Shown here piece by piece: positions 12,359 to 14,217 of a stretch of DNA of 64,000 nucleotides (position 1 is its first letter; every line of letters starts with the position of its first letter). The notes beneath the pieces are model-generated. The model did not search any database and was not told where the DNA came from. It was given only the letters and a program-made list of their open reading frames with translations. The stretch is from positions 186,001 through 250,000 of the forward strand of contig NZ_JAKWJR010000006.1 in NCBI RefSeq assembly GCF_022761125.1. Reading direction: 5' to 3'. Source of the stretch: Nocardioides sp. SR21. Lineage in GTDB: Bacteria > Actinomycetota > Actinomycetes > Propionibacteriales > Nocardioidaceae. The position numbers were made by a program, and so were the translations under genes.

Positions 12359-12751
12359 TCAGAGCTCCAGCTCGTCGGCGAGCGCTCGGAGCAGCTTCGC
12401 CACCGGCTTCGCGGTCTTGGGGTCCGGGCGCCGGTCGTGCCGGTAGGCCTCGCCGATCCCGTCGAGCACGCGGATCAGGTCCTCGACGATCGGGGCCATC
12501 TCGTCGGGGCGCTTGCGCTTGGCGTCGCGCTGGTTGCGCGAGACCGACGCGGGCGCGTCGAGGACGCGGACCTGCAGCGCCTGGTCGCCGCGACGACCCT
12601 GGGCGATGCCGAACTCGACACGGGTGCCGGGCTTGAGCGCCGTACCACCGGGAAGCGCGTCGGCGTGCACGTAGACGTCGGGACCGCTCTCCTGAGAGAG
12701 GAAGCCGAAGCCCTTCTCAGCGTCGAACCACTTCACCTTGCCAGTCGGCAC
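12359..12751 (-). CDS. Cold-shock domain protein with C-terminal extension
   Basis: A 130-residue single-strand nucleic-acid-binding protein. Residues 1-66 form a cold-shock domain with RNP-1 KGFGFLS and RNP-2 DVYVHA. A tail of about 60 residues contains RNQRDAKRKRPDEMAPIVEDLIRVLDGI and ends LLRALADELEL, as in the longer CspB type of actinobacteria. The start is GTG 12751 with AGAGGT upstream. It is convergent with the MFS gene across the 12186-12354 element. Confidence 0.92.
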   Translation of the reverse strand: MPTGKVKWFDAEKGFGFLSQESGPDVYVHADALPGGTALKPGTRVEFGIAQGRRGDQALQVRVLDAPASVSRNQRDAKRKRPDEMAPIVEDLIRVLDGIGEAYRHDRRPDPKTAKPVAKLLRALADELEL

Positions 12752-12807: not shown

Positions 12808-14217
12808 CTACAGAGCCTCGTTCATGGATCCGGAACGGAATCCGTGCGGATCGATCGCCGCGGCGTCGAAGCCCGCGTCGCGCACGGCGTCGACGAGGGC
12901 CCGCTCGGTCTCGGCGGGCAGTGGCAGCAGGGTCGCGTCGACCTCGACCGAGGCGCGGTCGCCCAGGTCGCGCACCCGCAGGTTCACCACGTCGCTCAGC
13001 AGCGTGCGGACGGCGACCTCGGCGCGCTCGACGCGGCCGAGGCGGTACGGCGTCACCTCGACGCCGTACGCGACCCGCGACGACAGGCACGCAGCCGCCG
13101 GCTTGTCCCAGGTCGGCAGGTCCCACCGGCGCGAGGCCTCGCGGATCTGGGCCTTGGTCAGGCCGGCGTCGCGCAACGGCGCGATGGCGCCACGCTCGGC
13201 AGCCGCCCGGATGCCGGGGCGGAAGCCGGCGACCGCGTCGTCGGCGTTGGTGCCGGTCGCGACGTGGGCGAGGCCGCGCTCGGCGGCGATGGGGCTGAGC
13301 ACGTCGAGGAGCTCGGCCTTGCAGAAGTAGCAACGGTCGGCGCCGTTGGCGCGGTAGCCCTCACGCTCCATCTCGTGCGTCTCGGGCGTGAGCACCTCGA
13401 CGCCCAAGGAGTCGGCGAACTCACGCGCCGGGTCGCGCTCGGCGACCGGGAGGGAGTGGGAGTAGCCGGTCGCGGCGCCGACGTTCTCCGCGCCGATCGC
13501 GCGCACCGCTGCGGCCAGCAGGAACGCGCTGTCCGCGCCGCCGCTGTAGGCGACCAGCACCGAGCCGCGCTGCCTCAGGTCCTCCTCGAGCGCGGCGAGC
13601 CGCAGCTGCAGCAGGTGCTCGTCGAGCCAGGCCGGGAACTCGTGGAGGGTGTCGAGGACGACGTGCGTGCCCGCCGCCTCGAGCTCCTCGCGGGAGCAAC
13701 CGCCGGTGAGCACGGAGACGCTGATCGCGTCGGCCGCGAGCGCACCCTCGACGTCGTGGACGTGGTCGCCGACGTAGATCGTCGCGCCCTCCTGGCGCAG
13801 CACGTCGGCCTTGCCGACGCCCCACACCTGACCGGCGAGGTGGTCGACGTCGAAGGCGAGGTGGTCGAGGTGGAGCCGCGCGTTGGGCGCGAACTTCCCG
13901 GTGACGACGACGTTGCGGCCGCCGTGGCGGCGTACGGCTGCCAGCGCCTCGTGGGCGCCGTCGAACGCGGGCGTCCCCGCGATCGCGTGGTCGGGGTAGA
14001 GCGCGCGGAACCGGTCGATCGCCTCGGCGATCGCGTCCTCCGCGAGGTGCGGCTCAAGGAGCATGTCGAGCGGCGGGCCGAGCTTCGCGGTCATCTCCTC
14101 GACCGGGAACTCGACGCCGAGCTCGGCACCCAGCGCCGCCAGCACGTCGCGGAAGCCGGGCGCGGTGTCGATCAGCGTCATGTCGAGGTCGAACCCCACG
14201 ACGAGCTGATCTGGCAT
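12808..14217 (-). CDS. larE: Fusion: HAD phosphatase domain + LarE sulfur transferase
   Basis: A 469-residue two-domain protein. Residues 1 to about 205 are a HAD hydrolase: DLDMT nucleophile motif (D10, D12), VVVTGK near 103-108, and GDHVHDVEGA acidic motif at 150-159. Residues about 215-469 are LarE: PP-loop SGGADS (225-230), RCYFCK (295-300), GTNADD (322-327) and KPAAACLSSR with C377, the place of the sacrificial cysteine in single-cysteine LarE proteins. LarE sulfurises the nickel-pincer nucleotide precursor. No larA, larB or larC lies nearby. TAGGCT 6 nt before ATG 14217 suggests a leaderless transcript. The role of the HAD domain is unknown. Confidence 0.88.
   Translation of the reverse strand: MPDQLVVGFDLDMTLIDTAPGFRDVLAALGAELGVEFPVEEMTAKLGPPLDMLLEPHLAEDAIAEAIDRFRALYPDHAIAGTPAFDGAHEALAAVRRHGGRNVVVTGKFAPNARLHLDHLAFDVDHLAGQVWGVGKADVLRQEGATIYVGDHVHDVEGALAADAISVSVLTGGCSREELEAAGTHVVLDTLHEFPAWLDEHLLQLRLAALEEDLRQRGSVLVAYSGGADSAFLLAAAVRAIGAENVGAATGYSHSLPVAERDPAREFADSLGVEVLTPETHEMEREGYRANGADRCYFCKAELLDVLSPIAAERGLAHVATGTNADDAVAGFRPGIRAAAERGAIAPLRDAGLTKAQIREASRRWDLPTWDKPAAACLSSRVAYGVEVTPYRLGRVERAEVAVRTLLSDVVNLRVRDLGDRASVEVDATLLPLPAETERALVDAVRDAGFDAAAIDPHGFRSGSMNEAL

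Follow-up and report, generated by a model that had tools for sequence, protein, structure and literature searches.

A gene of Nocardioides sp. SR21 that joins a HAD phosphatase domain to a LarE domain raises the question of whether a phosphatase that travels with LarE is a step in making the nickel-pincer nucleotide (NPN) cofactor. The sequence-only reading of this locus had answered that it might be, with the phosphatase acting on a substrate, product, or by-product of LarE, and had regarded the gene as standing without other lar genes. Here, we examine the fused gene in its window (the whole stretch of DNA analysed, 64,000 nucleotides, C25:186001-250000 of the genome), the other lar genes of the genome, and the distribution of the two halves, together and apart, among the genomes of relatives.

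The fused gene and its two domains

The fusion gene has an ATG start and is read on the minus strand from position 14217 to position 12808 without interruption. The G+C content of third codon positions lies between 0.93 and 0.97 across residues 1 to 440 (11 blocks of 40 codons) and does not fall where the two domains meet; an in-frame ATG is absent from residues 52 to 283; the gene therefore reads as a single coding sequence. As first proposed, one open reading frame holds a complete HAD domain and a complete LarE domain, matched above cut-off by Pfam models and TIGR00268, respectively, and both the DLDMT and the KPAAACLSSR motifs are present in the protein. The possibility that the window contains a frame error or has been misassembled was considered and ruled out, since both domains are found in most of the other LarE loci of the family (47 of 56); the full-length fusion in two other families likewise rules out misassembly. 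The HAD-LarE fusion is thus confirmed as real. AlphaFold modelled the whole fusion (alignment of 49 rows, 43 fused and 6 HAD-only) with a mean pLDDT of 89 and a pTM of 0.84, and in the models the last helix of the HAD domain (residues 191 to 205) is predicted to continue into LarE, forming one helix from residue 191 to residue 217.

The LarE half scored 275.2 bits against TIGR00268 (LarE; cut-off, 150), with residues 208 to 466 covering positions 4 to 259 of the 259-position profile. The PDB LarE structures 6b2o and 5udq matched this half with E values of 1.2e-27 and 4.1e-27, and the top Foldseek match to the whole model was 5udt, LarE with AMP (E value, 1.7e-19). Both the LarE of Thermotoga maritima, as described in PMC9283937, and the LarE half carry SGGXDS, CXXC-C, and the phosphate-binding Ser/Arg/Arg, and both have LarB and LarC as partners; in the T. 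maritima enzyme, the CXXC-C motif is described as holding a [4Fe-4S] cluster (PMC9283937). The T. maritima larE insert given in the same source is 0.83 kb, which leaves no room for a HAD domain, whereas the present protein is a fusion. The sacrificial-type LarE of Lactobacillus plantarum (PDB 5udq and 6b2o) aligns over its full length with the LarE half and is among the best structural matches; its Cys176 corresponds to A376 here, with the cysteine C377 one residue further, and the CXXC pair is present in the Nocardioides protein. Judged from its residues (SGGADS at 225 to 230, C296 and C299, and C377), the LarE half is of the three-cysteine (CXXC...C), [4Fe-4S] type and not of the self-sacrificing type. 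All 48 aligned rows keep S380, R414, and R416, which align with the residues proposed to hold the phosphate of P2CMN.

Motifs I to IV of HAD phosphatases are DxDxT, a threonine or serine, a lysine, and an acidic pair. The HAD half has all of the corresponding residues (D10, D12, T14, T106, K136, D151, and D155), as expected of a phosphatase of this superfamily, and they are kept in 45 to 47 of the 47 fused HADs aligned, a set that counts the window's own and leaves out L121 and L224 as too short. Against Pfam it scored 47.7 bits for HAD_2 (cut-off, 23.8) and 45.1 bits for HAD (cut-off, 27), and the AlphaFold model of the HAD part alone (residues 1 to 206; 29 alignment rows) reached a pLDDT of 95. 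Every substrate-specific NCBIfam model that matched the HAD half fell far below its cut-off. It is not a member of the phosphoglycolate phosphatase model TIGR01449 (54.9 bits; cut-off, 180), and the same holds for the pyrophosphatase models PpaX (29.1 bits; cut-off, 218) and BT2121 (16.7 bits; cut-off, 245). The fold search returned many cap-bearing HADs of differing function at similar Z scores, among them 2ah5 (Z, 23.6; rmsd, 2.5; 197 aligned), the alnumycin P phosphatase AlnB (4ex7; Z, 23.4; rmsd, 2.5; 198 aligned), the Bacteroides pyrophosphatase BT2121 (3qu7; Z, 20.4; rmsd, 3.6; 200 aligned), 3mc1, and phosphoglycolate phosphatases. The HAD half thus has its fold and motifs in common with phosphoglycolate phosphatase, AlnB, and BT2121 but differs from the phosphoglycolate phosphatase and BT2121 types in its low scores against their specific models. 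Assigning a substrate from family models or folds was tried and abandoned, as the models lie below cut-off and the folds point to no single substrate.

Table 1. Coordinates of the fusion gene, its domains and motifs, its downstream neighbour, and the lar region of genome G648
Feature	Position	Strand	Basis
Gene for the HAD-LarE fusion, 469 aa and stop codon	12808..14217	(-)	Single ORF; even third-position G+C
HAD domain, residues 1-203	13609..14217	(-)	Pfam HAD_2 and HAD above cut-off; AlphaFold
HAD motif I, D10-L-D12-M-T14	14176..14190	(-)	D10, D12, T14 in 47/47 fused and 29/29 stand-alone HADs
HAD motif III lysine, K136	13810..13812	(-)	45/47 fused and 29/29 stand-alone HADs aligned
HAD motif IV, G150-D-H-V-H-D155	13753..13770	(-)	D151, D155 in 47/47 fused and 29/29 stand-alone HADs
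LarE domain, residues 208-469	12811..13596	(-)	TIGR00268; PDB LarE; Foldseek
PP-loop S225-G-G-A-D-S230 (ATP site)	13528..13545	(-)	S225, G227, A228, D229, S230 in 48/48 rows; G226 in 47/48
C296-Y-F-C299, predicted cluster ligands one and two (CXXC-C motif)	13321..13332	(-)	48/48 rows
KPAAAC377LSSR, predicted third cluster cysteine; S380, P2CMN-phosphate serine by alignment	13075..13104	(-)	C377, S380 in 48/48 rows
Cold-shock-domain gene, downstream neighbour, outside the fusion	12359..12751	(-)	Pfam CSD
G648 lar region	L318:4844-13661

Other lar genes and the spread of the fusion

The sequence-only reading had seen none of larA, larB, or larC in the window, and this was borne out: the matches of the genome (4.82 Mb in 28 contigs) to the Lar_N, LarB, and LarC models all lie on other contigs. 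At the scale of the genome, the claim of a fusion without other lar genes does not hold. A profile search placed LarC at C24:203767-204873, with LarB adjoining it at C24:204894-205517, and a Lar_N protein on a third contig at C5:115994-116569. All were above the NCBIfam cut-offs (LarB, 269 bits against 175; LarC1, 185 against 90; LarC2, 143 against 50), and the Lar_N protein was identified as LarAH_14_15_16 (921.8 bits against 740), an NPN-dependent isomerase family. With larB, larC, and larE in one genome and a LarA-type candidate user of the cofactor beside them, an orphan LarE was ruled out, and these profile matches mark the genome as an NPN genome in which larE is unlinked to the other lar genes and fused. 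The LarAH14/15/16-type enzyme is likely the user of the NPN cofactor and possibly acts on a lipid-related substrate. In the same genome, a small membrane-protein gene (L006:8142-8726), presumably of the GDT1-type cation transporter kind, follows larC in the same direction, and the LarAH14/15/16 enzyme (L007:7116-13235) is grouped with reductase-like/HAD-IB, dehydrogenase-like, and acyltransferase-like genes.

Among 149 genomes of the family, LarE was found above cut-off in 56 and LarB in 59. Both were present in 55 genomes, LarE only in 1, LarB only in 4, and neither in 89. Lar_N was matched in 28 of the 149, every one of which has LarE or LarB. Of the 55 genomes that have LarE together with LarB, 28 gave no Lar_N match.

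From the 55 other LarE genomes of the family, 56 LarE loci were taken, as one genome (G058) supplies two. Of these loci, 47 have both domains, including one (L121) that is broken inside the HAD domain, and 9 have LarE without a HAD match; among the latter, L101 and L153 are truncated by the end of a contig, and L154 is split in two by a frameshift. Both loci of G058 (L111 and L112) hold a HAD-LarE fusion; in the HAD tree the second sits on a long branch, although its catalytic residues are intact. In a sample of the order (245 genomes), the fusion was matched in 46 genomes of two other families (38 in f77 and 8 in f78), with 57 to 62% identity over both domains. The alignments reach residue 469 in 45 of these 46 genomes; the one from G589 stops at residue 377, yet its locus holds a fused gene of 471 amino acids. 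LarB was above cut-off in 45 of the 46, the exception being G591. A scan of named genomes kept 79 loci of 181 relatives, with 24 HAD-only and 55 extending into LarE; the 55 belong to Nocardioides, Marmoricola, or Nocardioidaceae, and one of them (L278) is frame-shifted in both halves.

Outside the order, the matches listed from a sample of the phylum were LarE-only or HAD-only, although a sample of 396 genomes leaves room for a rare fusion. Of ten LarE loci from other families (L195-L204), nine agree with this, having called LarE genes of 251 to 292 amino acids without a HAD match; the tenth, L195, where the called LarE gene is only a 91-amino-acid fragment, carries no weight either way. In G348, G618, and G654, where the alignment began inside the HAD domain, the called LarE genes (203, 290, and 198 amino acids, two of the three shortened by the gene caller) had no HAD match. 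A small gene comes after LarE in three actinobacterial genomes drawn from two further families (L197:6043-6309, L198:6954-7184, and L199:7648-7890); that of L198 encodes a NIL domain (Pfam), and the other two are similar to it by eye. A report of a HAD-LarE fusion was not found in the literature searched.

According to this survey, three families of the order have conserved the fusion; we regard it as an old, order-level joining of a known NPN enzyme to a known kind of phosphatase. Breaks of frame in other strains, which had been named as evidence against the fusion, do exist (in the HAD domain of L121, in the unfused L154, and in both halves of L278), but they are exceptions and not the rule.

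The setting of the gene is conserved as well. A cold-shock gene lies on the same strand no more than three genes after LarE in 54 of the 56 other family loci (51 from gene calls plus L100, L104, and L133, where the gene caller had missed it); in L131 it is 2.8 kb away and truncated by the contig end, and L145 stops at the LarE gene. The genes usually come in the order (HAD-)LarE, the cold-shock gene, and then two neighbours that we take to be an MFS gene, on the opposite strand, and a DUF3027 gene. In all 12 loci examined from f77 and f78, the next gene is the cold-shock one. It also lies one to six genes after the HAD gene in eight of nine loci (L186-L194) of HAD-only genomes outside the family, and within the family, the 21 HAD-only loci taken have the HAD at the cold-shock locus in 14 and elsewhere in 7. 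Two f76 genomes (L315 and L316) have LarE alone at the cold-shock locus. The stand-alone HADs of L205, L206, and L208, which group with the window's HAD, sit away from this locus, indicating that the HAD gene has also moved.

The two halves apart

In the same 149 family genomes, a HAD search (E values up to 1e-20) found the phosphatase in 103, of which 47 have LarE and 56 lack it; LarE without HAD was found in 9 genomes and neither in 37, and HAD and LarE as separate genes in none of the 149. LarB was above cut-off in none of the 56 HAD-only genomes. In two of these the HAD seems to be damaged (the match in G067 covers residues 84 to 203 only, and that in G138 has an internal stop). Stand-alone HAD loci were taken from the 56 family HAD-only genomes (21 loci) and from other families (9 loci), and each of the 29 that were aligned, 20 of them from the 56 genomes, retains the full set of catalytic residues. 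These HADs, whose genes carry no LarE, are 42 to 79% identical to the HAD half within the family, where they often have the same neighbours, and 46 to 53% identical in other families among the matches listed. Ratios of dN/dS in hand-chosen pairs were 0.12 to 0.33 (9 fused pairs) and 0.16 to 0.39 (9 stand-alone pairs), indicating purifying selection on fused and stand-alone HADs alike. The earlier proposal that the phosphatase acts on a substrate or product of LarE is thus not supported, as the phosphatase is kept with intact residues where both LarE and LarB are missing.

The proposal fares no better from the opposite side, as NPN genomes manage without the HAD. Besides the nine genomes that have LarE and no HAD match, these include G046 and G055, which are LarB positive and have a broken or degenerate fused HAD. 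Degeneracy of HAD residues across homologues had been offered as grounds for rejecting the proposal; it was found clearly in two of the 47 fused HADs aligned, L123 (K136R, K108E, and about 26 residues shorter) and L124 (K136A, G150S, and loss of most of the cap, with motif I retained), again as an exception and not the rule. A mild change (T106S) is seen in L137. The LarE halves of L121, L123, L124, and L137 align in full. As evidence that the HAD is dispensable, G009, the source of L124, is weak, since its LarB is not above cut-off and the genome is 82% complete.

A natural control is provided by G648, a Nocardioides genome of the order sample. Its HAD gene stands unfused at the old locus (L317), and elsewhere (L318) it has larB, larE (273 amino acids, no HAD), and larC in a row, with no HAD gene inside this cluster. 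The three genes are divergent from reductase-like, dehydrogenase-like, LarA-like (526 amino acids), and acyltransferase-like genes (names partly by eye), and the same four genes are found around the LarAH14/15/16 enzyme of the SR21 genome (L007). In the LarE tree, the LarE of G648 is placed near f78 and apart from the Nocardioides fusions (SH-aLRT, 84), which suggests that its larE was acquired by transfer.

Many forks remain open in both the HAD and the LarE trees. In the HAD tree (76 rows, 47 fused and 29 alone), the labels fused and alone need 14 changes, at least 5 of which are forced by well-supported branches. Stand-alone HADs are nested inside the fused clade, and the window's HAD is grouped with three of them (99/88). 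Such nesting could reflect repeated fusion rather than repeated loss; we favour repeated loss, because the fusions occupy one locus and the LarE copies of the order at this locus form one well-supported clade. A search of the 900 bases downstream of 30 stand-alone HADs gave no LarE match better than an E value of 0.65. Similarly, HAD remnants were sought before the LarE-alone genes at 8 of the 9 loci, and the matches were at chance level except at L113, where the ten residues VVGFDLGVTL stand at the start of the LarE ORF (E value, 0.33; the position counts as much as the score). This stretch is likely a HAD remnant, which makes loss of the HAD likely for L113, and we infer the same for the other LarE-alone loci.

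Retention of the HAD is higher in genomes with LarE (47 of 56) than in those lacking LarE (56 of 93; Fisher P = 0.003 over the 149 genomes, ignoring relatedness), and in the window's genus it is missing from 0 of 13 LarE genomes versus 9 of 23 others. Loss of one fused gene takes both halves, which could explain the higher retention with LarE.

The role of the phosphatase half

The LarE half very probably works in NPN synthesis. It would adenylylate the carboxylates of P2CMN with ATP and deliver sulfur through a cluster on C296, C299, and C377, giving P2TMN, with LarB acting before it and LarC after it, both encoded elsewhere, to complete the NPN cofactor for use by the LarAH14/15/16-family enzyme of the genome. 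Synthesis of this cofactor probably does not include the phosphatase as a step, because relatives often keep one half alone. We consider it reasonably probable that the protein is bifunctional, combining a [4Fe-4S]-type LarE for NPN with an older, independent HAD phosphatase for a general small metabolite. The HAD half would be an intact cap-bearing phosphatase derived from an independent actinobacterial gene at the same locus and would hydrolyse a general small phosphorylated metabolite rather than an NPN intermediate; LarE would have become joined to its last helix in a single ancestor within the order, and most lineages retaining both halves would have retained the fusion.

Two observations speak against such independence: the higher retention of the HAD in genomes with LarE, and the persistence of the fusion over at least three families, which is often a mark of functional linkage. 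The HAD half might instead serve LarE by hydrolysing pyrophosphate, AMP, or a stalled adenylate, thereby pulling adenylylation forward, and do housekeeping elsewhere in the absence of LarE. LarE is described as adenylylating its substrate (PMC9283937), the HAD is intact in nearly all aligned fusions and better retained with LarE, and its fold matches, among many HADs, include BT2121 and AlnB. However, the PpaX and BT2121 scores are far below cut-off, a cap-bearing HAD fold suits many substrates and makes the matches unspecific, and some NPN genomes have a HAD that is absent, broken, or degenerate; we therefore hold this role to be unlikely. The last objection would weigh less if the fused HAD were an optional helper, recruited from an older neighbouring gene and built in beside the site of sulfur insertion to clear PPi, AMP, or stalled adenylate, as some NPN genomes would then be expected to do without it. 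We entertain this version as a tentative and rather doubtful one.

A phosphatase for salvage, repair, or regulation that acts on a nucleotide of the NPN pathway itself (P2CMN, P2TMN, or NPN) appears improbable. It would fit the fusion to LarE and the presence among the fold matches of AlnB, which acts on a ribosyl phosphate. LarE, however, is proposed to grip its substrate through the phosphate (PMC9283937), and LarC cytidinylylates that same phosphate (PMC11796402), so that its removal would presumably stall the pathway and a productive role of the HAD on P2CMN or P2TMN would be unlikely. The 56 family genomes that keep the HAD without LarE or LarB and the unfused, HAD-free lar cluster of G648 argue in the same direction. 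That the LarE half is not an NPN enzyme at all and thiolates another nucleotide is the least credible of these alternatives, and we give it very little weight: the family genomes with LarE and LarB and no Lar_N match could be read that way, but larB, larC, and larE without larA are already known from about 15% of genomes in the account of PMC11796402. The near-perfect co-occurrence of LarE and LarB, the adjoining LarB and LarC and the LarAH14/15/16 enzyme in the genome, and the conserved P2CMN-phosphate residues also stand against it.

Collectively, the preferred bifunctional reading corrects the tempting inference that a fusion partner must be a pathway step, as the natural experiment in these genomes shows either half occurring without the other. 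The analysis also records an old LarE domain architecture that was not found in the literature searched, and it makes matched fused, HAD-only, and LarE-only forms of a single chromosomal locus available. Should the HAD assist LarE after all, the protein would be an NPN enzyme carrying its own phosphatase and would show how the cell handles the by-products of sulfur insertion.
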